Part shown: positions 7,205 through 35,376 of the stretch, piece by piece | Position numbering within the stretch: the stretch's first letter is position 1 | Layout: each line of letters starts with the position of its first letter | DNA from: a virus | Length of the DNA: 35,376 nt | Direction: 5' to 3' (one strand) | IMG/VR virus record: IMGVR_UViG_3300009034_000129 | Span: 1-35,376 of that record | Translations under genes and position numbers: made by a program | Notes under the pieces: generated by a model | Database searches by the model: none | The model's input: only the letters and a program-made list of their open reading frames with translations | Told to the model about the DNA's origin: nothing

Positions 7205-7233
7205 TTGACATTTTTTAGATTTTCTTATATAAT
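7205..7233 (+). promoter_or_regulatory. Consensus sigma-70 promoter for the early operon
   Basis: A perfect -35 box TTGACA at 7205-7210 and a perfect -10 box TATAAT at 7228-7233 are separated by 17 bp, preceded by an A/T-rich stretch that could act as an UP element. Transcription should start near 7240 and run rightward into the structured leader and the early genes. Such a perfect match indicates use of the unmodified host RNA polymerase immediately after infection. Confidence 0.92.
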
Positions 7234-7246
7234 GCAAATATGATTA

Positions 7247-7372
7247 TGGTGCAGATAATAGATGGATTCAAAAAAGAAATTTTTAATAAAGGGGCTCTCA
7301 CAAGGACAGGTCAGATTTCAAATCTAAACCATTTGTTATCTGCACCAGCCTGTTCTTGTGTTCCCCTTTTTT
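7247..7372 (+). ncRNA. Pseudoknotted leader RNA / attenuator of the early operon
   Basis: Two long stems interleave. Stem A pairs 7247-7258 (TGGTGCAGATAA) with 7336-7347 (12 perfect pairs). Stem B pairs 7288-7310 with 7349-7369: CACAAGGACAGG with CCTGTTCTTGTG, then AAAGGGG with CCCCTTT across a small internal loop. The right arm of A lies inside the loop of B, giving the order A-B-A'-B', which is a pseudoknot. A small hairpin (7313-7325) sits in the loop. Stem B ends in six T residues and is an intrinsic terminator. The region begins at the predicted start of transcription, so it would be either a roughly 130-base RNA or a switchable attenuator. Confidence 0.75.
7288..7372 (+). terminator. 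Intrinsic terminator inside the early leader
   Basis: A stem of 12 pairs (one G-U), a small internal loop and 7 further pairs is formed by 7288-7310 and 7349-7369, followed directly by T residues 7367-7372. It stands between the promoter and the first early gene. Read-through must therefore be controlled or partial for the operon to be expressed. Confidence 0.72.
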
Positions 7373-7812: not shown

Positions 7813-7992
7813 ATGAAATATTTTAAGCAATATAAAGATAAAGACGAGAGAGCAATATTAAAAATAACAAAAGTGGAAGCAATCAACCTTGTGGGAAATC
7901 ATTATTCTAATCCCGATGAAGTTTTGAGTTCGTCTTCAAGAGAGCATAAAATCAGAACTCCATTTGTCAATGTTTGGAAGGAGGAAGGATGA
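7813..7992 (+). CDS. Small hypothetical early protein
   Basis: A 59-residue protein starting at ATG 7813 behind the strong site AAAGGAGGAAGG. It is rich in lysine and serine (MKYFKQYKDKDERAIL at the front, DEVLSSSSREHK in the middle). It ends in KEEG because its last codons form the SD site of the next gene, and stop and start overlap as ATGA. No family recognised. Confidence 0.6.
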   Translation: MKYFKQYKDKDERAILKITKVEAINLVGNHYSNPDEVLSSSSREHKIRTPFVNVWKEEG

Positions 7993-8141
7993 GAACAAAG
8001 AGAAAGAAAAAATATATTGAAATTGTTACCCAGAATGGTATGAGATGGCTATTCTCAACTACCCAAAAAACACTAATCACAATAAAAGAATTAGTTGATA
8101 TTGATACAGGTAATATCGTAAAAAAAACTATTTATAACTAA
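7989..8141 (+). CDS. Small basic early protein
   Basis: A 50-residue, strongly basic protein (opening MRTKRKKYIEIVTQNG) with the same GGAGGAAGG-ATG arrangement as its neighbours. The sequence suggests a small beta sheet with a charged start, which could bind nucleic acid. It is the last gene before the hairpin at 8153-8205. Function unknown. Confidence 0.58.
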   Translation: MRTKRKKKYIEIVTQNGMRWLFSTTQKTLITIKELVDIDTGNIVKKTIYN

Positions 8142-8152
8142 AATTAACCAAC

Positions 8153-8205
8153 AGGGCGGGTATCTCATAGAACCTCCAAATCTTCGAGATAACTCAACCC
8201 GCCCT
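8153..8205 (+). promoter_or_regulatory. GC-rich stem-loop before the replication initiator
   Basis: AGGGCGGGT (8153-8161) pairs perfectly with ACCCGCCCT (8197-8205). Inside it, ATCTC (8162-8166) pairs with GAGAT (8186-8190), leaving loop 8167-8185. The loop contains GAACCTCC, which resembles the anti-SD tail of 16S rRNA. No T tract follows, so it is not a forward terminator. The next gene (8218) has no SD site of its own, so this structure probably affects its translation or the stability of the message. Mechanism is inferred. Confidence 0.7.
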
Positions 8206-8217
8206 TAAAAGAAAAAA

Positions 8218-9069
8218 ATGCCACAGGGAAGAATAATATTGAAATCAATTTGTCAGAGTAAGAAAATGCCAAAGTTAAAAACTGATGGAGCAAGGTTGCT
8301 TTATACCTGGCTCCTGACTAATCTCGATATTAATGGTTGTTTTTCTGGTAACATTCAAGATATAAAAGGACAAATTTTTACAAGATTAAAACACTCACTT
8401 AAAACAATAGAATCCTATTTACAAGATTTAGAGAAAAATGACCTTATTGTTCGTTACGAAGTAGATGAAGAAGATTATATTTTTGTCCCCGATTTTGTTA
8501 AAAAGCAACCAAAATTAAGGGCTGACAGAGAAGCAGAGCCAACTATACCTTTACCAACTCAGGAGCAACTCAGGAGTAACTCAGGAGTAACTCCGGGTAC
8601 AAGTAAAGTAAAGTTTAAGTTAAAGAAAAGTATAAGTAAAGATAAAAGAAAGAAAAAACCTTTTGTTGAAAATTCTATCGAATTTCAACTTTCCAAATAT
8701 CTTTTTGATTTAATCAGAAAAAGGAAGCCAGATTTCAAAAAACCAAATAAAGAGAAGTGGACAGAACATATTGATAAAATGATTCGATTAGATAAGAGAA
8801 AACCAAAACGGATTCGAGAAATAATCAAGTGGTGTCAACAAGATGGTTTCTGGCAAAACAATATCTTATCAACTGAGAAACTAAGAAAACAGTTTGATCA
8901 GTTAGAGCTGAAAGCAGATTCAAAAAAAGAGAAGAAAGAAGATGAGTTAATAAAACAAGCGGAGGAATGTTCACGATATGCGGGTCCGAACTGTGTCTAT
9001 GAAACTTCTGGTACACCTGAAAAAATTTGCAAGTACTGCCATAGATATAAAAAAAAGGAGAAGCAATGA
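8218..9069 (+). CDS. Phage replication initiator / replisome organizer
   Basis: A 283-residue protein. Residues about 1-105 form a winged-helix domain of the type found in phage replisome organizers (KLKTDGARLLYTWLL, IKGQIF, DLIVRYEV, then VPDFVKKQ and DREAEPTIPLP). Residues 110-150 are a low-complexity basic linker that carries the iterons. Residues about 155-230 match the usual C-terminal domain of such proteins (IREIIKWCQQDGFW, NILSTEKLRKQFDQL). The end holds a Cys cluster (CSRYAGPNC, CKYC), a possible zinc site. It should bind the origin and load host replication proteins. ATG 8218 lacks an SD site, unlike most genes here. Confidence 0.8.
   Translation: MPQGRIILKSICQSKKMPKLKTDGARLLYTWLLTNLDINGCFSGNIQDIKGQIFTRLKHSLKTIESYLQDLEKNDLIVRYEVDEEDYIFVPDFVKKQPKLRADREAEPTIPLPTQEQLRSNSGVTPGTSKVKFKLKKSISKDKRKKKPFVENSIEFQLSKYLFDLIRKRKPDFKKPNKEKWTEHIDKMIRLDKRKPKRIREIIKWCQQDGFWQNNILSTEKLRKQFDQLELKADSKKEKKEDELIKQAEECSRYAGPNCVYETSGTPEKICKYCHRYKKKEKQ
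8556..8599 (+). repeat. Iterons inside the initiator gene (candidate replication origin)
   Basis: Four consecutive 11-bp units of the form AACTCAGGAGY lie at 8556-8566, 8567-8577, 8578-8588 and, degenerate, 8589-8599. Eleven is not a multiple of three, so the repeats do not produce a repeated peptide, which argues for selection at the DNA level. A strongly A-rich segment without cytosine follows (about 8601-8660), suitable as an unwinding element. Iterons within the initiator gene followed by AT-rich DNA is the arrangement of the lambda O origin. Confidence 0.72.
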
Positions 9070-10324: not shown

Positions 10325-11398
10325 GTGAAGAAGAAAGATGAAACAAAACAACAGGATTTTACTGATATTCCTGTCTCTACTCTGGACCCGAGAGTCGATA
10401 TTCTCAAAGGAGGGAAAACTCTGATTAAAACAGAGGTTGAATATCATACTGCAATATCAGTTCAAAAACCAAGAGACATCGATGAGATTGTGAAAAACGT
10501 TCTCAAAGAAGCTGAGTTTGGTGGACAGGAATTTTATTATTCCTGGCCAATCAATACGAAGTATGGCAAGAAAATCGTGGAAGGTGGAAGCGTTGGGCTT
10601 GCTGTTTCACTTGCAAGAGAATGGACAAACTGTGCTATTCCCGTAGAAGTAAGTGAGAACGATGAGTGTTACACTTTCCGAGCTGCCTTCGTTGACCTCG
10701 AAAAAGGTTTTACCCTGATGAGGACCTATAGACAGAGAAAAGCGCAAGATATAGGGAAAAAATATGATGAGCAACGAGCGCAGGATATGATTTTTCAGAT
10801 TGGACAGAGTAAGGCAATAAGAAATGTTGTCTTGAACGCGGTCCCAAAATGGCTCGTTAAACAAGCTATTGAGAGGGCAAAAGAGGCGGTTCTGAAAAAC
10901 ATAACAAAAGATGGGATTGATACAGCAAGAAATAAAGCAATCTCTTTTTTTCAGGGTTATGGTATTTCAGTTGAACGGTTGATTATATTCCTTGGTAAAA
11001 AAGAGAACGATTGGACAATAGAAGATATTACTCAACTTCGTTCTGCAGGACAAATGGTTAAAGATGGCGAGGTTTCGACAGATGAAATTTTTCCACCTCT
11101 TGAAACAGAAGAACCAAAAAAACCTCAAACCACAGAAGAGGTTCTCGGGAATGGCAAAAATGAAGACACCAAGGAAAAAGGAAAGTCTAAGCCAAAGCAA
11201 AAACACACAAAGGAATTTATTGCTGAGTTTGTGAATGTAACCATTGAGTGCGTTGCCAAAGGGAAAAAGATTTCACCTGCAGAATTGCCAACAAAGGATA
11301 AGGAGAATCTCAAGAAAGTAACATTGAAAAAACTTGAGAGATTGCCGAACGATAAGGCAGAAATAGAACTCAACGATATGAAGGAGGCATTGAAATAA
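10325..11398 (+). CDS. Putative single-strand annealing protein (recombinase-like)
   Basis: A 357-residue protein starting at GTG 10325 behind AAAGGAGGTG. Its core (residues about 50-190) has the pattern GGSVGLAVSLAREW (87-100), then FRAAFVDLEKGFTLMRTYRQ and SKAIRNVVLNAVPKWLV (162-178). I associate this with a widespread phage family predicted to have a Rad52-like, single-strand annealing role. The adjacent nuclease, as in Exo-Bet systems, supports this. Residues 235-290 are acidic and proline-rich. The C-terminal helical basic segment (residues 295-357) could contact a partner. It is not RecT or Erf by obvious motif, so the exact family is uncertain. Confidence 0.6.
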   Translation: MKKKDETKQQDFTDIPVSTLDPRVDILKGGKTLIKTEVEYHTAISVQKPRDIDEIVKNVLKEAEFGGQEFYYSWPINTKYGKKIVEGGSVGLAVSLAREWTNCAIPVEVSENDECYTFRAAFVDLEKGFTLMRTYRQRKAQDIGKKYDEQRAQDMIFQIGQSKAIRNVVLNAVPKWLVKQAIERAKEAVLKNITKDGIDTARNKAISFFQGYGISVERLIIFLGKKENDWTIEDITQLRSAGQMVKDGEVSTDEIFPPLETEEPKKPQTTEEVLGNGKNEDTKEKGKSKPKQKHTKEFIAEFVNVTIECVAKGKKISPAELPTKDKENLKKVTLKKLERLPNDKAEIELNDMKEALK

Positions 11399-11406
11399 GA
11401 ATGAGA

Positions 11407-11500
11407 GGCTCGGTTGTGATGTGATAGTCTGACTGAACGGAGGTTCGTCCTATCCTGATAGTTGGTGGTAAGTTGCAATTATCGAATTGCCAACCGAGCC
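11407..11500 (+). ncRNA. Structured intercistronic RNA element, copy 1
   Basis: GGCTCGGTTG (11407-11416) pairs perfectly with CAACCGAGCC (11491-11500). Inside are GCAATT-ATCG-AATTGC (11475-11490), stacked directly on the closing stem, and GATAG (11423-11427) pairing with CTATC (11450-11454) or an alternative local CTATC/GATAG hairpin. The closing stem is identical to that of the element at 15342-15451. The 13-base sequence GAAATAAGAATGA flanks the element on both sides (11392-11404 and 11508-11520). It fills the gap between two early genes and contains no coding frame of note. Confidence 0.75.
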
Positions 11501-11516
11501 TTGAAAGGAAATAAGA

Positions 11517-11855
11517 ATGAATCTAAGAACAAGAATGATGTTAGAGGCAGGTTTGATAATTTGTGAAAACGAAAATAGAAGTACAGAATATACCATACAG
11601 TATCTGCAGGATTTCGCAAAGGTTGACCACGACTGCGTAATGAATTTTTTATGTGAGAATCGAGATAAAGAGAAAGGAGATGAGATGACTGGTAAAGATT
11701 TAAGAGGAAAAGTAAATAATTTCAATGATGCATTAACCGATATTAGATGTTTTCTCAGAGAAAAAAAAGTGTTAAATACTGAGATTACTGTCCTTATTGA
11801 TAGCATTAAAGAAGATTGTAATGAGTTATTTTACTTAATCCCATTAGAGAAATGA
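11517..11855 (+). CDS. Hypothetical helical early protein
   Basis: A 112-residue, mainly helical protein starting at ATG 11517, 16 bases after the RNA element, with a moderate AAAGGA site. An internal in-frame ATG (11685) has a good GGAG site upstream and could give a shorter 56-residue form. The second half (KVNNFNDALTDIRCFLREKKVLNTEITVLIDS, described in two parts: residues 61-80 and 81-92) looks amphipathic. No family is recognised. It overlaps the next gene by ATGA. Confidence 0.6.
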   Translation: MNLRTRMMLEAGLIICENENRSTEYTIQYLQDFAKVDHDCVMNFLCENRDKEKGDEMTGKDLRGKVNNFNDALTDIRCFLREKKVLNTEITVLIDSIKEDCNELFYLIPLEK

Positions 11856-12073
11856 CCGATAAAATCCGTTCCTGCAACAGTAGCATCCCTGAATCTAAAT
11901 ACAATCAAATCTTTAGAAAAGAGAAGAAAATAAAGAAATGTTGGCGGTGTGGAATAGATGAAGTTTATGATATAGAAGACAATAATGGTATGTGTTATAA
12001 TTGCTATGTTGAATGCGTAGAGGCAGAAGAGCGAGAACGAAATAGCACTTTTGAAAATGGAGAGCAAAAATGA
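11852..12073 (+). CDS. Small zinc-binding protein
   Basis: A 73-residue protein with CWRC at residues 30-33 and CYNC at about 48-51, spaced as a zinc ribbon with an acidic hairpin (GIDEVYDIEDNNG) between. The N-terminus is basic and the C-terminus acidic. It overlaps both neighbours by ATGA-type junctions. Probably nucleic-acid or protein binding; function unknown. Confidence 0.68.
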   Translation: MTDKIRSCNSSIPESKYNQIFRKEKKIKKCWRCGIDEVYDIEDNNGMCYNCYVECVEAEERERNSTFENGEQK

Positions 12074-12156
12074 TTAACATATTTCTTTACTCAACCAAAA
12101 TTTTCATAATGTTAGTTTTATTTCCAGCGTGCTTCGTTGACGGATTTTGGGAGTAA
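12070..12156 (+). CDS. Possible 28-residue hydrophobic peptide
   Basis: A short frame beginning with the ATGA overlap of the preceding gene and reading MINIFLYSTKIFIMLVLF, then PACFVDGFWE. It would form a single membrane helix. The same DNA forms a 14-bp long-range RNA stem (12086-12157), so either the peptide, the structure, or both may be selected. It has no SD site and would depend on coupling. Confidence 0.35.
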   Translation: MINIFLYSTKIFIMLVLFPACFVDGFWE

Positions 12157-12157
12157 A
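12086..12157 (+). promoter_or_regulatory. Long-range intercistronic stem-loop
   Basis: TTTACTC (12086-12092) pairs with GAGTAAA (12151-12157), and after a two-base bulge CCAAAAT (12095-12101) pairs with ATTTTGG (12144-12150), 14 perfect pairs in all. Inside, CAGCG (12125-12129) pairs with CGTTG (12135-12139) around a five-base loop. No T tract follows. The structure ends 26 bases before the next start codon and 14 bases before its GAGGTGAG site. Confidence 0.6.
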
Positions 12158-12182
12158 CTTTTAAGAGAGAGGTGAGATATAA

Positions 12183-12461
12183 ATGAAAGTTGCTATAAAT
12201 AGTTGTTATGGTGGTTTCGGTTTATCAAAAGAAGCATATAAATTTCTGAAATTAGAATGGGACGGATATGGATATGATTATTGTGATAAGAAAAAAAGAA
12301 ACGCTCCTGAACTTATAAAATGTATTGAGACATTAGGGAAAAAAGCAAGTGGTTGTTTTGCAGAATTAAAAATAGTTGAAATTCCCGATGATATAGAATA
12401 CATAATAGAAGAATATGATGGTGTTGAATGGATAGCGGAAAAACATAGAACTTGGAAGTAA
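12183..12461 (+). CDS. Conserved phage protein of unknown function
   Basis: A 92-residue protein of a family common in tailed phages. The opening MKVAINSCYGGFGLS, the KRNAPELIKCIETLG segment, ELKIVEIPDDIEYII and the ending EEYDGVEWIAEKHRTW are the conserved blocks as I remember them. No activity is known to me for the family. It has a GAGGTGAG site upstream and a structured leader at 12086-12157. Confidence 0.8.
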   Translation: MKVAINSCYGGFGLSKEAYKFLKLEWDGYGYDYCDKKKRNAPELIKCIETLGKKASGCFAELKIVEIPDDIEYIIEEYDGVEWIAEKHRTWK

Positions 12462-12465
12462 TAAA

Positions 12466-12765
12466 ATGAACGGCACACAATTAAGTTTAGGATTGAGACA
12501 GGAGCAACAAGAGCCTGAAGAAATTCGTAAACTAAAAGAGAAACTCAGAGACGAACGAAACACAACACAACCCGCAAGAGTGTTTAGGCTTTTGCGGGCT
12601 TATGGAACGCTCAATACAATCGAACTGGTTGAGCATTGCCTCAGTTTATCACCAAAAATTTCTCACGGTGATAGAAAGTTGAGATACTTATATACGTGGG
12701 GAGTAGTAGAAAAGTTTAAACGGGAAGGAAGCAAAATCCTGATATGGAGGGAGCGAATGTTATGA
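12466..12765 (+). CDS. Winged-helix DNA-binding protein
   Basis: A 99-residue protein. After a charged Glu/Gln/Lys-rich N-terminus, residues about 36-95 read as a winged helix: ARVFRLLRAYGTLNTIELVE as helices 1-2, HGDRKLRYLYTWGVVEKF as recognition helix, and GSKILIWR as wing. It may be a small transcription regulator of the phage. The SD site is weak (GGAAG), and the stop overlaps the next start. Confidence 0.65.
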   Translation: MNGTQLSLGLRQEQQEPEEIRKLKEKLRDERNTTQPARVFRLLRAYGTLNTIELVEHCLSLSPKISHGDRKLRYLYTWGVVEKFKREGSKILIWRERML

Positions 12766-12893
12766 AATATATAATCATAGCACTTATTTTGCTTGAATTG
12801 TTATTGCTTCAATGGATAGCTGATGAATTACTTCTCAAGCGGGCTTTAGACGCTTGGCAGATTATAATAGAGGTTGAGGAGATTGTTAAATGA
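12762..12893 (+). CDS. 43-residue single-pass membrane peptide
   Basis: The frame begins and ends with ATGA overlaps to its two neighbours, and GGAGGGAG lies upstream. Residues 4-22 are a leucine/isoleucine-rich membrane helix (IIIALILLELLLLQW), followed by an amphipathic acidic helix. No family recognised. The tight junctions on both sides make it a credible gene. Confidence 0.65.
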   Translation: MKYIIIALILLELLLLQWIADELLLKRALDAWQIIIEVEEIVK

Positions 12894-13246
12894 TTGACAA
12901 GATAAAATTATGGCTTGAAAAGTGGGGCAGACTCACTCCCCTAAAGGCTATCCGAATAAATTGCGTTGATTGTCAAGGCGGAATAGAGGAGGGAAGCGTT
13001 AAAGGGGTGAGATTATGTCCTAACATCCTATGCGTTTTCTGGGGCTTCAGAATGAGACGCAACCCGTTTCTGAAGGGTAGATATAAAGTCAAGCAAGAAC
13101 GCACGAAATCGGGACGGTTTTCTCCGTTAAAAGCGGTAAAAAAAGATACTGTGGTGTCTGTTAGTGAGGGTGTTTTTGTCTCAAAGGAAGAATGGGGGAA
13201 AATCAAGAAAAAATTAAAGGAGATAGAGAATGGGAAAGAGAGATAA
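12890..13246 (+). CDS. Conserved Cys-rich phage protein (zinc-binding)
   Basis: A 118-residue protein containing the blocks LTPLKAIRINCVDCQGG (residues 15-31), VRLCPNILCVFWGFRMRRNP (40-59). These define a widespread small family in phages of anaerobes and thermophiles. The four cysteines (CVDC, CPNILC) probably hold one zinc ion. The C-terminal half is basic, with a second LKAV segment, and ends in a charged helix. Function unknown; nucleic-acid binding is plausible. Confidence 0.78.
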   Translation: MIDKIKLWLEKWGRLTPLKAIRINCVDCQGGIEEGSVKGVRLCPNILCVFWGFRMRRNPFLKGRYKVKQERTKSGRFSPLKAVKKDTVVSVSEGVFVSKEEWGKIKKKLKEIENGKER

Positions 13247-13595
13247 AGGAAATTATTACAAGAGGAAAACAAAGAAATGGTTTATCAAACAGGGTTATTG
13301 GTGTGATTATGTAGAACGTTTACAGAGAATTGTAACATATGATAAATTTACAAAAGAACCAAAAGTTATATTCGTCAAACAGGATTTAGCAGGAGCTGAC
13401 CTTCTCGCAATGAATGGTGAAGAACTTATCTTTGCTAACTCGAAACTCGGAAGAAAAAACATTGCAGAGGGCTTGAAAGAGTTTGCGAAATTTCCTTATC
13501 CTCCATTCGTGAAACGATGGCTTGTGGTCTGGGAAGTTAGAGCAAGAGAACCTGAAATTATAGAATATGAGGAAGGAGGTGATAAGAATGTATGA
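13230..13595 (+). CDS. Holliday-junction-resolvase-like / restriction-fold nuclease
   Basis: A 121-residue protein with the layout of small PD-(D/E)XK nucleases: a basic front (KRKTKKWFIKQGYWCDYVE), Asp in DLAGADLLAM (around residue 55), and a strand ELIFANSKLG in the position of the catalytic E-x-K, followed by EGLKEFAKFPYPP. The catalytic Glu/Gln-x-Lys is not clean, so activity is uncertain. It overlaps the previous gene by 17 bases and sits with recombination genes, which supports resolvase or VRR-NUC-like function. Confidence 0.6.
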   Translation: MGKRDKGNYYKRKTKKWFIKQGYWCDYVERLQRIVTYDKFTKEPKVIFVKQDLAGADLLAMNGEELIFANSKLGRKNIAEGLKEFAKFPYPPFVKRWLVVWEVRAREPEIIEYEEGGDKNV

Positions 13596-14016
13596 CGCAG
13601 TAGAAACTTTTACAGACTGTCCGAAGTGCAAGAAAGCAAGGTTAATCAAATGCTTTCCCGACCTTTTTATTTGTCCTAAATGCAAGAGAGTATTTTTGTT
13701 TACTAAGGGAAGAAAGAGAAATTTTTTCAGAAAGACTTCAGTTGATAATGAAAGAGAATGTAGAGCGGTTCTGGATTCTGGTAACTGGAAACCAGTTCAA
13801 AAAGTCGAAGGAGAAAAGGAAACAGGCGGGATTAAAATAAAACTGACAACAGAATATCTTAGTCTTGAAGATGAAAGGAAGATATTTATTTCTGAGGCGA
13901 AAACTCTCTTAGGAAAATTTGAGCGTCTTCTTTCTCGATATAGTAAAAAAGTAGAAGACAACAAGGCTATTCTTGAGAAAATCAATGACTTAACGAAAGG
14001 AGGTAACACAGATTAG
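13588..14016 (+). CDS. Zinc-ribbon protein with helical C-terminus
   Basis: A 142-residue protein. CPKC at residues 11-14 and CPKC at about 29-32 form a classical zinc ribbon, followed by a basic KGRKRNFFRK stretch, then beta and finally a helical segment (residues 90-135). ATG 13588 is used because AAGGAGGTGA (13573-13582) lies at the right distance; an earlier in-frame ATG 13567 lies before that site. Placed directly upstream of the SMC-like ATPase, it may be its partner or a DNA-binding accessory. Confidence 0.7.
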   Translation: MYDAVETFTDCPKCKKARLIKCFPDLFICPKCKRVFLFTKGRKRNFFRKTSVDNERECRAVLDSGNWKPVQKVEGEKETGGIKIKLTTEYLSLEDERKIFISEAKTLLGKFERLLSRYSKKVEDNKAILEKINDLTKGGNTD

Positions 14017-14042
14017 TCTAACCTTAAAGAAGTGGAGGAAAA

Positions 14043-15332
14043 ATGCCAAAGCAAAAGACACAAAAAAATGACGGACTTCGCATTCTCAAACTCGAAGCTG
14101 AGAATGTGAAGCGGATTAAAGTTGTAAGCATTACCCCGGAGGGTGATGTTGTTATTATCTCGGGAAAGAACGGACAGGGAAAAACCTCTGTCTTAGATTC
14201 TTTCTGGCTTGCACTCGGGGGAAAGAAAGCATCTCCTCAAATTCCTATAAGAAAGGGACAGGAAAAAGCAAGCGTAAAAGTTGAGCTCGGGTCCAAAAAC
14301 TTCCAGAAGATTAAATACATCATTGAGAGAGTATGGAGTGATAATGAACATTCTCATCTTAAAGTAACAACGGGAAAAGGTGATGGTTTCGGTACTCCTC
14401 AACAACTCCTCGATAGTTTACTCGGAGAACTTTCTTTCGACCCTTTAACTTTTGCACGTGCCGACAAGAAGATACAACGTGATTTTCTTATGGAAGCAGG
14501 GAAGATTAAAGGTGACTGGGATAAACTTACTTTAATTTCTGGTAGCGATTGGTCTCATTATCCAAACTACATCGACGCAACAGATGCAGCAGTCAAAACC
14601 TTATTTGAGACCCGGACAGAGATAAACAGGAGAGTGAAATCTCTTGCTAATCAGATTGATGCCATTAAGATTCCAGAAGAATATGAAAAGGCAAAACCTG
14701 TGGACGTTACGAAGCTCCTGGACAGGCAAAAGAAAGTTGACCATCTTGCAGAATTACAACGCAATATAAAGACAACGGAAGAAGAGATAGAAAACCTTAA
14801 CGACAGATTAAAGGAATTACAGCAAGAGAGAAAGAAACTTCTGGACAAAGGTATTTCAATAATCGATGGAGGAAAGATTCGAGAGCAGATTAAGAAAGCA
14901 GATACAATCAACAAATTTTCTAACCTCATAGAAAAACGGAAAGAGCTTAAGGAAACTTACAAAACGGATGCCGATGAGTCAGAACGTTTAACCAATGTTC
15001 TTAATCAGCTCAGAGAACTCAAGACTGAAGTTGTGGCAAAGGCAAAACTCCCGATTGACGGTCTTGGATTCGATGAGGAAGGAGTTACATACAATGGTCT
15101 TCCCTTCTCTCAAGTTTCTGATAGTGAGAAACTGAAGATTTCAATGGCTATCGCCATGGCTCTCAATCCTCAGATTAGAGTGATCAGGATAACTGATGGC
15201 TCGCTCCTCGATAAAGACAGTATGAAAATTATTGAGGAGATGGCAGAAAAGAACGACTTCCAGGTGTGGCTTGAAGTGGTAGATGACACAGGTAAAGTAG
15301 GAATTTACATCGAAGATGGAAGTATAAAATAA
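14043..15332 (+). CDS. SMC/RecF/SbcC-like AAA ATPase
   Basis: A 429-residue ATPase. The N-terminal half-domain has the strand ILKLEAENVKRIKV and the Walker A GKNGQGKTS at 41-49. A coiled-coil segment follows (about residues 180-315, with QRNIKTTEEEIENLNDRLKE in its first half). The C-terminal lobe holds SDSEKLKISMAIAMALNP, in the signature position, and IRVIRITDGSLLDKDS, in the Walker B position, where aspartate is present but the usual following glutamate is not. It probably helps load or organise proteins on recombining or replicating phage DNA. It is shorter than SbcC and lacks a zinc hook. Annotation as RecF-like is by architecture. Confidence 0.8.
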   Translation: MPKQKTQKNDGLRILKLEAENVKRIKVVSITPEGDVVIISGKNGQGKTSVLDSFWLALGGKKASPQIPIRKGQEKASVKVELGSKNFQKIKYIIERVWSDNEHSHLKVTTGKGDGFGTPQQLLDSLLGELSFDPLTFARADKKIQRDFLMEAGKIKGDWDKLTLISGSDWSHYPNYIDATDAAVKTLFETRTEINRRVKSLANQIDAIKIPEEYEKAKPVDVTKLLDRQKKVDHLAELQRNIKTTEEEIENLNDRLKELQQERKKLLDKGISIIDGGKIREQIKKADTINKFSNLIEKRKELKETYKTDADESERLTNVLNQLRELKTEVVAKAKLPIDGLGFDEEGVTYNGLPFSQVSDSEKLKISMAIAMALNPQIRVIRITDGSLLDKDSMKIIEEMAEKNDFQVWLEVVDDTGKVGIYIEDGSIK

Positions 15333-15341
15333 AAATGAAAT

Positions 15342-15451
15342 GGCTCGGTTGTGGCATGGTAGCCAAACAATTCTGGATGGTAGCGAGGGTAGGGTTCGAT
15401 TCCCGTAAAAACTGCCCCTCAAATTGTTGCAGACCAACTGCCAACCGAGCC
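15342..15451 (+). ncRNA. Structured intercistronic RNA element, copy 2
   Basis: The closing stem GGCTCGGTTG (15342-15351) with CAACCGAGCC (15442-15451) is identical to that at 11407-11500. Inside are TGGC/GCCA (15352-15355 with 15362-15365), a long arm ACAATT/AATTGT (15367-15372 with 15422-15427) continuing with GAGGG/CCCTC (15385-15389 with 15416-15420) and capped by GGG-TTCGATT-CCC (15392-15404), and GCAG/CTGC (15429-15432 with 15438-15441) stacked on the closing stem. The cap loop resembles a tRNA T loop. A near-repeat AAAAATGARAT brackets it (15331-15341, 15469-15479). No coding frame. Confidence 0.75.
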
Positions 15452-15477
15452 TTGAAAATTGAAATGAGAAAAATGAG

Positions 15478-15849
15478 ATGAACAAACAAGGGAAAAATGA
15501 TATTGAATGGACAGATTATACTTGGAATCCGCTTAAGGGATTATGTTCTGTAAACTGTAAAGACTTACAAGGTAAACCCTATTGTTACGCAAGGCGGATG
15601 TATAAACGTTTCAAGTGGAATCCGAAAATAAGATTGGATGAAAAAGAATTACTTGAGCCATTGAAACTTAAAAAACCCTCTAAGATATTTGTTTGTAGCA
15701 CTATCGAATTATTCCATCCTGATATATTACAGAAGTGGCAACGGTTTATATTTGATATTATAAAAGAATGCCCGCAACATACTTTTGTTATATTAACAAA
15801 AATTCCCGAAAATGCTATCGGATGGAGTTTTCCTGAAAATGTACGGTAA
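15478..15849 (+). pseudogene. DUF5131 (Gp37/Gp68) family protein, C-terminally truncated
   Basis: A 123-residue protein matching the first half of the phage Gp37/Gp68 (DUF5131) family, with IEWTDYTWNPLKGLC at the front, CYARRMYKRFK, KPSKIFVCSTIELFHPDIL and CPQHTFVILTKIPE. Members are usually about twice as long, with a second half after this point. Here translation ends at TAA 15847-15849, and no continuation is found in the next 50 bases. The cysteine pattern of the family is also altered (C-x3-C then eight residues before the next C). The start has no good SD site. It may be a decayed gene or a functional short form. Confidence 0.68.
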
Positions 15850-18763: not shown

Positions 18764-18800
18764 AGGAGTCAGAAATCACTGTCTGACTCCTTTATTTTTT
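18764..18800 (+). terminator. Intrinsic terminator of the early operon
   Basis: AGGAGTCAGA (18764-18773) pairs perfectly with TCTGACTCCT (18782-18791) around an eight-base loop, followed by TTATTTTTTT. A strong rho-independent terminator directly after the last early gene. An upstream CAGTGA (18753-18758) is complementary to TCACTG (18776-18781) in the loop, so a pseudoknot is possible. Confidence 0.92.
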
Positions 18801-20070: not shown

Positions 20071-20485
20071 ATCAAGACAACCTTACACAGAAAGAGAGCA
20101 AAATTTAATTCTCACTTTCTATGAAATGGGAACTACGGATAAAATGATTGCAGATGCTTTAAAAGAGCCTTATACAACTTTTAAAGACCGTTGTGGTTAC
20201 ACAATCTTTTATAAAAATGTGTTGAATGAAAAAGGAAAGATTGCAATGTTATCCGACATTATAAAAAAAGTTAAGAATATTGCTGATTTACAGGTTGAAG
20301 CATCTCTTTATATTCAAGCAAAAAAGGGGAAACTTGGAGCAATCTGTGTATGGCTATTTAATCGTATGCCTGAAAAATGGAAGACAGTGCAACATATCAA
20401 AATAGTAAAAGAGGTAAAAGAAGTTGTAGCAGAAATGACCGAGAAGGAGACTAATGAACTTTTCTCTGAACTTGTTAAAAAATAA
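20063..20485 (+). CDS. terS: Terminase small subunit (putative)
   Basis: A 140-residue protein starting at TTG 20063 (AKSRQPYTEREQ), where a weak AAGGCGG site precedes it; the open frame extends further upstream within the methyltransferase gene, which is less likely to be used. The N-terminal part is a helix-turn-helix (ILTFYEMGTTDKMIADAL), and the centre carries AICVWLFNRMPEKWK, a segment typical of phage small terminases. It would recognise phage DNA and regulate the large subunit. It overlaps the large terminase gene by 32 bases. Confidence 0.75.
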   Translation: MAKSRQPYTEREQNLILTFYEMGTTDKMIADALKEPYTTFKDRCGYTIFYKNVLNEKGKIAMLSDIIKKVKNIADLQVEASLYIQAKKGKLGAICVWLFNRMPEKWKTVQHIKIVKEVKEVVAEMTEKETNELFSELVKK

Positions 20486-21899
20486 GAAACTCACTCGGTA
20501 CGAAAAAGACCTCTGCATTAAGCACGAAACTCTTAATAATCTCTTTTTCTTTGAGAAGGAAATACTTGGATATAAAGACCTTGGACCCGAGCATCAGGAA
20601 TGGTGCTGGGATCTCGAGTATATGCTTAAAGAAGGTATTAATCTTTCACTCTCATTAGCTCCACGTATTACATATAAGACTACTGTTAGAACCAAAGGAT
20701 ATGCACTCTGGAGACTTACGAAAAATCCAGACCTTAGAATTTTACTTTTAAGTGACCTTGCTGATAATTCAAAAGGATTTCTAAGGGAAGCAAAGATACA
20801 CTGTGAACGCAATGAACGTTTCAGGTATTACTTTGGTGACTGGGTTAGTGAGAAATGGAGCGAATCTGAAATTGTTATTAAACCTCGGAAATCGAAATAC
20901 TCTGAAGGCAGTCTCACAGCTAAAGGTTTAGACTCAACCATTACCTCAAAGCATTATGATATTATAATAGGAGATGATCTTGTAGTGAGAAAAGATAGAG
21001 AGAGTGAGGCAACTCGCAAGATGAAGATAGAACGCTTTAAAGAACTTCCAAGCTTGCTTACAGAGAACGGAGAGATACATCTTGTAGGCACTCGATGGCA
21101 CTCTGACGACCTTTATCACTTTATAATCAATAAGCTTAATAAAGAACTTAAAGCAGAAAATAAACCTCAGTATAGAGTCACCTGTCAGTCAGCTCTTAAC
21201 AAAGACGGTGAGAGTAACTTCCCAAGTGTTTATTCAGTGGAAGACTTGAAACTTAAAGAAATCCTTGTTGGAATGGTGGTATACGCTTGTAACTATTTGA
21301 ACGATCCGTTAGCCGAAGGCACACAGATATTTCCTATAAAAGACCTTAAACTTTTCAATTATAATAAGTTTGAGCAAGAATATATTAACAGCAAGAAGCA
21401 TATTGATTTCTATGGTTTCATAGATCCATCTCTTGGAGGGGCAGGAAGCGATTATGTATGCATCATTATTGCAGCAGTGCCAAAGAATGGATATGTTTAT
21501 ATTCTGGAATGTAAGATGGTGCGTATACCTCCAACAAGACAGATTTCTACCATTATGGATGCTCAGAGAAGATACAAATTCAAGAAGTTTGGGATTGAGA
21601 CTAATATGTTCAGAGGACTCTTAAAGAAATACATTGAGGAGTTCTCAGCAAAAGAACGTTCATATATCAAGCTTTACAAAATAAACCAGACAAAGAATAA
21701 ACAGGTGCGGATTGAGGCTTCAGAACCAATGGTCAAGCAATATGTTTACTTTAGAGATGACTACCAACTGGCTTATCCACTACTTATGCATCAGCTTGAG
21801 AACTTTCCAATTACAACTCACGATGACGGACCGGATGCACTCGAGGGGCTTCTTAGTATAACTAAAGGCAAAGGCAAAGCACAGATTTATTTTGGCTAA
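20454..21899 (+). CDS. terL: Terminase large subunit
   Basis: A 481-residue packaging motor. The ATPase domain shows a deviant Walker A APRITYKTT (69-77), Walker B DIIIGDD (169-175) and the coupling motif GTRWH (212-216). The RNase H-like nuclease has Asp324 in FIDPSLGG, Glu382 in GIETN and Asp457/Asp458 in DDGPDAL. It pumps DNA into the prohead through the portal and cuts the concatemer. The Walker A lacks the usual glycines, as is known in some terminases. GAAGGAGA precedes ATG 20454. Full length for the family. Confidence 0.93.
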   Translation: MNFSLNLLKNKKLTRYEKDLCIKHETLNNLFFFEKEILGYKDLGPEHQEWCWDLEYMLKEGINLSLSLAPRITYKTTVRTKGYALWRLTKNPDLRILLLSDLADNSKGFLREAKIHCERNERFRYYFGDWVSEKWSESEIVIKPRKSKYSEGSLTAKGLDSTITSKHYDIIIGDDLVVRKDRESEATRKMKIERFKELPSLLTENGEIHLVGTRWHSDDLYHFIINKLNKELKAENKPQYRVTCQSALNKDGESNFPSVYSVEDLKLKEILVGMVVYACNYLNDPLAEGTQIFPIKDLKLFNYNKFEQEYINSKKHIDFYGFIDPSLGGAGSDYVCIIIAAVPKNGYVYILECKMVRIPPTRQISTIMDAQRRYKFKKFGIETNMFRGLLKKYIEEFSAKERSYIKLYKINQTKNKQVRIEASEPMVKQYVYFRDDYQLAYPLLMHQLENFPITTHDDGPDALEGLLSITKGKGKAQIYFG

Positions 21900-33031: not shown

Positions 33032-35376
33032 AAGCAGCATCAACTGCATTTCAGGAAATCAGAAAGAGACTCCATATCGCTCCTGATTCCTCTGGAGCTA
33101 ATAAGGTTAAGACAAAGGTTGAACTCACAGAGGTTCAGGTTGACAATACCATTGAACTTGTTGAAGGCGATCTTCTTATCTCTGTTGGAGAAATAAGAGA
33201 TAGACTTGAGGGAACGAAACTTAACAGTTTTGCTCCATCAGAAGTTGTAGTCACACTTCACGATCCACAGGATTATCCTGTATTTTATAAAGCTGACGGT
33301 TCTGGACTTTTTGATGATCTTGGTAAGAAATATCAGGCTAAAGTTTACAAGGGAATGGAGATTGGTGGCTCAATGGAATGGTGGGAAATGTTCGATGGTG
33401 AAGTGAAAAATAATACCATAGAGAGAAAAGGACATCATAGAATTGAGCTTACTGTAATTGGATGGCTCAAAGAAGCAGAGCGGTATAATGCGGAAGAGGT
33501 TGCTGACCCTAATAATTTTCCTTTTAAGAATATAAAAGGAATTTCTTTTGTTGGTCTTAGTGGAGAACATCCAATAACAGGAGCAAAGACATTATCTTTT
33601 TCTATTGAAGATGAAAAAAATTATTTACAATATGAAGGAGGCATTAAAAAAGAGATTTCTGCTGATGGTAATTTTAATTGTTTCAGTGCTACAAGGGAAG
33701 AATATATAACTTTGGCTTGTGATATTTCAGAGATGCCTACTGAAAGTAAAACTGATAATTTTCCTATAATAAATTACGGAGGAACATTCCACGCTTGCTA
33801 TTGGTATGAGAATATCCCACTTGAAACCATTGTAAATTATCTTATAGACAAACTTGAGGAAGGAACTCCAGGAGCTATTACAAGAGATATAGATGTAAGA
33901 GAAATCGAATCAGAACTTGAAAAGAACTTTGTTTATTTGGGACCCAAACTCTTTATGCCGAACAATAATTTGGCAATCAGTGCTTTTATAACTGCGGTAA
34001 AATTAATTGACTATAATGCAGGAACGAATGTTATTACTTTTCTTATAGGAGTGCGTTCAAGAGTAGATGGGAATGTTTTTAATGACAAAAATTATTGTTA
34101 TAAAATTGTGATTGATGTAAACAATGATACTTATACAGCAACACGAATTACAGTTGAAATCAACACGGAATATCAGTTATCAAGATTTCTGCATTTTGCA
34201 AATAGATGGTGGGTTGTTTTGGGTTATCCAACAGAATGTGATTTAACTCCGAATGACCCCTATCGTTATTGGGCTTATAAGATTTACAGATTCAATGTTG
34301 CATTGACAACGACTGATTATGTTTTAAATTTTGGTTCAAATCCACCTTCAAATAATTATTCTGGTGATGATGATTGGTATATCTATCTTGTACATACTGC
34401 CGAAGTATTGGAAGGAACAAGCAATGATATGTATATAATTTTACAGGATAGGTCTTCCGGGGTTTATAGAGTTTTATTGAGAAAGTTTAATTGGAACGGT
34501 TCGATATTGGTTGAAAGCGTCGTGGATACTCTTGGCTTTTATGATTCAGGTGAAATACTGAGCGGTCTTATTTCAGATGATTATGCCACAATTTTTAAAC
34601 TTGATAATACAAATAAGAATTATGTATATGGAATTAGACATATCACTTATGCTCCAGGAGGGTATGATATAAACGATTTACAGATTCGGAGATACGATAT
34701 AGATGTCGTTACTTTTACTACTATTAAAGAACACAATAGCGTATATGGTGGTGTGGTTAATATGTCAAGAAATCTCCACATTCCAAACAATCACTGGAGG
34801 GCTTTTTATTATTATCAAAGCTCTGCGATTCCATATTATCGAGGTTATTGGATTGATAAAAATGGTATTGCATGGGTTCCCGTTACGGGAAATAATAAAA
34901 CAAATTATATCTTTTCTTCTCTTTTTACTCGCTATGATATGTGGTGGATGCATAATCCAGGAACTAACAGTTGGAGGATAGGCAGGAAAGATGTTGAATC
35001 AGATTATCAGGATTATATAGAAGCAAAATATTTATTTTCTGATTATGAAGGCAGTCAAGTTGCTCCTATGGTATACAAAGAAAATGATGTTACAGATTGC
35101 GAATATTGTGGAGTTGTTCTCGATAAAAATGACAGAGGAATTGTTCCATTTCTTTATAGAGCAAATGCTCTCTCGACGGTTCACCTTGCAGATTTTACAG
35201 ATATGTCAGTAAGGAGAGCACTTACTGAACTCGGTATTTTTGCTCTTGATATTGTTTCACGTCCAGGATTATTGAAAGTTATTTTTCGATATAGAGAGTC
35301 TTTCAGGGATACTGATACACTTGACTCCAATGATTGTGATGCTTATCCAGTTGTAAAAATATGGAAGCATTATTAT
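33028..35376 (+). CDS. Tail-tip/baseplate protein (continues across the join to 527)
   Basis: Start ATG 33028 overlaps the tape measure stop (ATGA). The frame is open to the window end and continues at position 3 of the left end to the stop at 527, 918 residues in total. Residues about 20-190 are a beta-rich tail-tip-like front (FAPSEVVVTLHDPQDYPVFY, WWEMFDGEVKNN). Residues about 370-670 are a Tyr/Trp/Asn-rich series of strands that resembles a beta-propeller-like insertion. The C-terminal part (from about 690, CEYCGVVLDKND) returns to a mixed domain with SVRRALTELGIFALDIV. By position it is the tail-tip hub or distal tail protein. Confidence 0.8.
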   Translation, partial: MKAASTAFQEIRKRLHIAPDSSGANKVKTKVELTEVQVDNTIELVEGDLLISVGEIRDRLEGTKLNSFAPSEVVVTLHDPQDYPVFYKADGSGLFDDLGKKYQAKVYKGMEIGGSMEWWEMFDGEVKNNTIERKGHHRIELTVIGWLKEAERYNAEEVADPNNFPFKNIKGISFVGLSGEHPITGAKTLSFSIEDEKNYLQYEGGIKKEISADGNFNCFSATREEYITLACDISEMPTESKTDNFPIINYGGTFHACYWYENIPLETIVNYLIDKLEEGTPGAITRDIDVREIESELEKNFVYLGPKLFMPNNNLAISAFITAVKLIDYNAGTNVITFLIGVRSRVDGNVFNDKNYCYKIVIDVNNDTYTATRITVEINTEYQLSRFLHFANRWWVVLGYPTECDLTPNDPYRYWAYKIYRFNVALTTTDYVLNFGSNPPSNNYSGDDDWYIYLVHTAEVLEGTSNDMYIILQDRSSGVYRVLLRKFNWNGSILVESVVDTLGFYDSGEILSGLISDDYATIFKLDNTNKNYVYGIRHITYAPGGYDINDLQIRRYDIDVVTFTTIKEHNSVYGGVVNMSRNLHIPNNHWRAFYYYQSSAIPYYRGYWIDKNGIAWVPVTGNNKTNYIFSSLFTRYDMWWMHNPGTNSWRIGRKDVESDYQDYIEAKYLFSDYEGSQVAPMVYKENDVTDCEYCGVVLDKNDRGIVPFLYRANALSTVHLADFTDMSVRRALTELGIFALDIVSRPGLLKVIFRYRESFRDTDTLDSNDCDAYPVVKIWKHYY
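35258..35376. repeat. Terminal direct repeat, right copy
   Basis: Identical to positions 1-119. Removing one copy gives a 35,257-bp circle in which the tail-tip gene is intact. Confidence 0.95.

Follow-up and report, generated by a model that had tools for sequence, protein, structure and literature searches.

A previously undescribed stem-closed element at gene junctions of related phages, probably acting in mRNA

Two gene junctions in the genome of an uncultured phage each carry a small unit with complementary ends (C1 and C2), which raises the question of whether they are copies of one element and whether such an element works as RNA or as DNA. The window (the whole stretch of DNA that was analysed, 35,376 nucleotides) corresponds to a virus entry in IMG/VR with a length of 35,377 bases. 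Its ends repeat over 119 bp (1-119 and 35258-35376), and the record is therefore probably a complete genome, either circular or terminally redundant. The large terminase (20454-21899) has its nearest relatives on three IMG/VR contigs at 55–56% identity, and among named viruses the terminase of ANMV-1 virus, which has an uncultured archaeal host, comes closest (35.5%). Despite this relative, promoter and ribosome sites in the window are bacterial in appearance.

Both units lie in an operon on the plus strand, in which genes for a DnaD-like helicase loader, a PD-(D/E)XK exonuclease and a phrog_3657 protein precede C1. After C1 come small genes, a RecF/SbcC-like ATPase gene, C2 and a short DUF5131 gene. 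The gene behind C2 (15478-15849, 123 aa) matches the first half of DUF5131 only (243 profile positions) and thus looks truncated; it also matches the NCBIfam radical SAM mobile pair protein A. A further intercistronic hairpin, GGGCGGGT...ACCCGCCC, is found at 8152-8204 between genes 7974-8141 and 8218-9069.

Table 1 Positions of the elements, their parts and their surroundings in the window
Feature	Position	Strand	Remark
Sigma-70 promoter	7205-7233	+	12/12, spacer 17; consensus match only; presumably drives the early operon holding C1 and C2
Gene upstream of C1	10289-11398	+	phrog_3657, function unassigned; adjoins the PD-(D/E)XK exonuclease gene
13-bp repeat GAAATAAGAATGA, left copy	11392-11404	+	stop of the upstream gene and an ATG
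Element C1	11407-11500	+	94 nt; P1 arms 11407-11416 / 11491-11500; eleventh pair A11406-T11501
Possible 5′ hairpin GAT/GTC beside P1, C1	11418-11429	+	read from the sequence; weak, outside the minimum-energy fold
Hairpin GCAATT/AATTGC beside the 3′ arm of P1, C1	11475-11490	+	in the sequence; probability 0.93 on the minus strand
Right flank TTGAAA of C1	11501-11506	+	conserved; C3 counterpart TTCAAA
13-bp repeat GAAATAAGAATGA, right copy	11508-11520	+	covers the start of gene 11517-11855 and the bases before it
Gene upstream of C2	14043-15332	+	RecF/SbcC-like ATPase, phrog_1499
C2 11-bp repeat, left copy AAAATGAAATG	15332-15342	+	not beyond chance
Element C2	15342-15451	+	110 nt; P1 arms 15342-15351 / 15442-15451
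Possible 5′ hairpin TGGC/GCCA beside P1, C2	15352-15365	+	read from the sequence; competes with a rod-like fold
Hairpin GCAG/CTGC beside the 3′ arm of P1, C2	15429-15441	+	in the sequence; probability 0.47 on the minus strand
Right flank TTGAAA of C2	15452-15457	+	conserved
C2 11-bp repeat, right copy AAAATGAGATG	15470-15480	+	not beyond chance
Terminator-like hairpin	18764-18791		10 pairs then TTATTTTTTT; presumed end of the early operon

The closing stem (P1) of C1 and C2 is identical over 10 bp, as GGCTCGGTTG and its complement are exact at all four arms. When up to one mismatch is allowed, the window contains seven sites of GGCTCGGTTG, where 0.49 would be expected; none of the shuffles reaches seven, and four of the seven sites are the arms themselves. 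The two copies also have a right end of 22 nt in common at 95% identity (AATTGCCAACCGAGCCTTGAAA). The common stem and right end are beyond chance. Among GC-rich perfect stems of at least 10 bp with ~75–100 nt between the arms, C1 and C2 are the only ones in the window. The stop codons before the two elements have their last bases at 11398 and 15332, so that P1 begins after 8 nt in C1 and 9 nt in C2. The coordinates, shared stems and flanks that a sequence-only reading had given for the two copies, and its placement of each just after a stop codon, were confirmed by this check of the sequence.

A third copy was found with a covariance model for which only C1 and C2 were used, with the 10 pairs of P1. 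In 406 kb searched, the best further match was C3 (22.9 bits, E 0.015), while the next unrelated match had 16.8 bits (E 0.41); on C3's own genome, the E value of C3 was 0.0012. C3 is 120 nt long (L035:15525-15644) and lies in a relative, G003 (IMGVR 3300031565_000194), the terminase of which is ~55% identical to that of the window phage. It is identical on a second contig of the G003 phage, and its orientation relative to transcription is that of C1 and C2. C3 begins 7 nt after the stop of a 331-aa gene, the stop-to-stem spacing being 7–9 nt in all three copies, and the next start codon is 19 nt downstream. The 331-aa gene comes behind an exonuclease gene, as the gene before C1 does; the two genes occupy this same slot, with no homology detectable between them by BLASTP (E 0.086).

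Kept in all three copies are GGCTCG, the TG that ends the 5′ arm and the TG after it, TGCCA..CCGAGCC and the right flank TT[GC]AAA (TTSAAA), the remainder having diverged. Eight pairs of P1 are invariant, and 29 of the 30 cells are paired. As for changes that could break the stem in homologues, the compensation that the sequence-only reading had counted on is seen at pair 8, where T-A becomes C-G in C3 by changes on both sides, and fails at pair 7, which is A.C in C3 on the plus strand (G.U on the minus strand). The covariation score of P1, based on one two-sided change, one mismatch and eight invariant pairs, was equalled by 162 of 500 shuffles. Judged by these shared sequences, C1, C2 and C3 are homologous copies of one element. 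Thus, an intercistronic element in more than one copy had been proposed rightly, with the homologue of the relative keeping the stem through one two-sided pair change. The covariance search suggested at that time yielded one further member, C3, when applied to the analysed sequence, with IMG/VR and GTDB covered by pattern scans.

Not every related junction holds a copy. In G003, where the genes behind the ATPase gene overlap, no element is present there, and in the more distant G001 none is present behind the ATPase gene or behind a RecT-like gene (named from its sequence). The element therefore appears to be lineage-specific, with positions that differ between genomes. None of the element-free junctions in G003 or G001 is a clean empty site.

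Whole C1 and C2 fold better than their dinucleotide shuffles, with z-scores of −3.6 and −3.5, because of the closing stem. Compared with shuffles, the interiors alone give p values of 0.13 (C1), 0.30 (C2) and 0.43 (C3) on the plus strand, and 0.015, 0.24 and 0.59, respectively, on the minus strand. Interior alignment scores between copies give p values of 0.15, 0.19 and 0.04, the interiors being barely alike. The idea that the interiors hold a conserved fold is accordingly not supported, as those of C2 and C3 fold no better than shuffles. The GCA..TGC hairpin, which had been proposed to stack inside the 3′ arm, is present in the sequences of C1 and C2, but it is absent from the plus-strand minimum-energy folds of both and appears on the minus strand instead.

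Searches for known families gave no match. With Rfam 15, the window has no match at the gathering threshold, and the matches that appear at E up to 10 are at chance level. ARAGORN reports no tRNA or tmRNA gene in the window, none in its intron or tmRNA modes, and low-score noise at a relaxed threshold. A D-arm-like 5′ hairpin and a T-loop-like motif in C2 had suggested a tRNA-like reading; as these features are kept in neither C1 nor C3, it was dropped. An intrinsic terminator was also rejected, as the loops are 74–100 nt, P1 is followed by TTGAAA or TTCAAA with no T run, and neither C1 nor C2 is listed as a terminator. With the Rfam, tRNA/tmRNA and terminator tests all without a match, the view that the element belongs to no known RNA family finds support in these searches.

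Further copies were looked for more widely. Pattern scans of IMG/VR at several strengths and of GTDB genomes returned, besides C3, just chance matches in GC-rich coding genes (L005, L038). A terminase search of the GTDB genomes found no relative, and BLASTN against phage records gave short chance matches only. When other stem-closed intercistronic units were sought in ~30 related loci, one true tRNA and chance stems were all that appeared.

The leader directly behind the early promoter (7247-7369) offers another structure. It contains two interleaved helices, A (TGGTGCAGATAA/TTATCTGCACCA) and B (AAAGGGG.../...CCCCTTT), arranged as an A-B-A′-B′ pseudoknot candidate. Both helices are kept in a homologue, L035:11256-11375, the stems of which differ for the most part in sequence (AGCCACAGAGTA, AGCGGGAT), and the loop TCAGATTTCAAA is common to the two leaders. 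Such arrangements occurred in one of 40 shuffled windows. The leader is thus a candidate conserved pseudoknot RNA that is not in Rfam, and it has better structural support than C1–C3. Between genes of a relative, a second A-B-A′-B′ candidate was seen at L009:6915-7002 (the same in L008:4573-4660), with helices AGGGGACAG/CTGTCCCCT and GCGAGAC/GTCTCGC. Another match of the pseudoknot search, L035:1666-1787 with arms CAACAGGAT and CCCTCCT, may be due to chance.

The main rival to an early-mRNA reading is that the unit works as DNA, either as a MITE-like element bounded by terminal inverted repeats or as a recombination site of the cassette type; the arms would then be recombinase sites, the interior would be free cargo, and insertion would have duplicated 13 bp at C1. 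We regard it as unlikely, though worth weighing in full. What favours it is the free interior between conserved ends together with the 13-bp bracket of C1, which the sequence-only reading had pointed out and which is indeed unusual; at least 13 bp are shared by 2 of 2304 unrelated stop/start context pairs (~1 in 1000), and in both of these pairs the shared bases are ribosome sites of small genes that neighbour each other. The base composition of C1–C3 (GC content of 0.48–0.54) is also unlike that of their genomes (0.37 and 0.41), and the symmetric two-arm change in C3 suits a shared binding protein as well as it suits pairing. However, the repeat around C2 (11 bp, one mismatch), while present as described, is ordinary, since 3.2% of unrelated stop/start pairs have one as good, and C3 has no flanking direct repeat at its junction. 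Insertion with duplication of the junction is hence not supported as the general origin that had been put forward, and from the sequences it may be claimed for C1 at most. Moreover, the orientation is the same in all three copies, the TTSAAA flank lies outside the repeats and on one side only, and the near-identical copies expected after recent transposition were not found in the IMG/VR and GTDB scans. Like integron attC sites, C1–C3 are imperfect inverted repeats that follow a stop codon and vary in their centre, but attC was rejected, as the RYYYAAC/GTTRRRY cores are absent on both strands of all three. Like bacterial MITEs, they are short non-coding units with inverted-repeat ends, and a direct repeat brackets C1. 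Unlike MITEs, they have differing interiors and thus lack whole-length likeness; their target-site repeat is inconsistent from copy to copy, and no parent transposon was found.

Other rivals fare less well. A small RNA acting in trans could be cut from the early mRNA at the ends of P1, with its interior varying with its targets. A discrete, stem-closed unit of 94–120 nt with an interior free to vary would suit this, but we find it improbable, as matches to a promoter of its own are at chance level on both strands and no seed is conserved. No complementarity beyond chance was found between C1–C3 and their flanks, between them and the leader, or between the copies. Even less probable is an antisense RNA from the minus strand, folded into P1 and the GCA..TGC hairpin. 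On that strand, whole C1 has a z-score of −5.3, its interior stands out, and pair 7 of C3 is G.U. On the other hand, the minus-strand interiors of C2 and C3 are unremarkable, and the sole nearby minus-strand promoter match (11567-11538) is 9/12, a grade with 29 matches vs 37.5 expected by chance. A small coding gene is hardly credible. C2 (48 aa, 15335-15481) and C3 (54 aa, L035:15518-15682) each have an open frame whose start codon comes right after the stop of the gene before, and the C2 frame overlaps the next start. Yet C2 and C3 do not read the conserved 3′ arm in one common frame, and their peptides show no likeness. In C1 the corresponding frame ends within a few codons, and frames of such length follow 21% of comparable start positions in the window; this rival was rejected on the frame, peptide and chance-openness evidence.

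We conclude that C1–C3 represent a real, previously undescribed small element that probably acts in mRNA. The RNA reading is favoured by the constant orientation, the stop-codon spacing and the lack of a constant target-site repeat. Counted for it are also the strong promoter upstream and the terminator downstream of the operon, the higher GC content of the elements than of their genomes, and the lack of a T run after P1; counted against it are the shuffle-level interiors of C2 and C3, the single two-sided change with its often equalled score, and the A.C at pair 7. Three copies do not decide between the RNA and DNA levels.

The explanation that we prefer, if tentatively, is a lineage-specific, stem-closed element of early mRNA with a cis effect at the junctions of genes, where its most likely role is that of a processing site or decay barrier. 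C1–C3 would be transcribed within the polycistronic early mRNA of a small group of related phages. Their ends would pair as a fixed helix of 10–11 bp, starting 7–9 nt past the stop and so just outside the terminating ribosome, and ending 16–26 nt before the next start codon. The conserved part would be this helix and the single-stranded TTSAAA behind it, and the 74–100 nt interior would be a GC-rich, poorly constrained filler. Acting post-transcriptionally, as a processing site or as a barrier of structure against decay, the element would separate recombination-gene mRNA upstream from small-gene mRNA downstream and could thereby give them different expression levels.

Intercistronic RNase III processing hairpins of the T7 type are a feature of phage early mRNAs. 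C1–C3 are like them in being structured, between early-operon genes, in several copies and all on the transcribed strand. Unlike them, C1–C3 have a closing stem of 10–11 bp round a long variable interior, and a stem of 10 bp is short for RNase III. The put antitermination RNA of HK022 is ~70 nt with two stem-loops near early promoters (PMC9378689). C1–C3 are likewise read as a cis-acting structured RNA of a phage early transcript, but each is one stem-closed unit, and C1 and C2 lie ~4 and ~8 kb from the beginning of the operon. In position, the pseudoknot candidate in the leader of this phage is closer to put.

A broader proposal, which we put forward as a doubtful one, is that C1–C3 stand for a class of phage element with a conserved closing helix and right flank, a freely evolving interior of ~75–100 nt and a fixed distance behind stops, which may spread between early-operon junctions and act as a boundary of polycistronic RNA. 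The practical value is modest today because three copies are known, and the finding adds a family missing from Rfam, from poorly sampled environmental phages. Should the element act as a boundary in RNA, it would give phages a portable means of dividing a long early operon that needs neither promoters nor terminators, and the way it spreads from junction to junction would reveal how expression inside an operon is rewired by phages.
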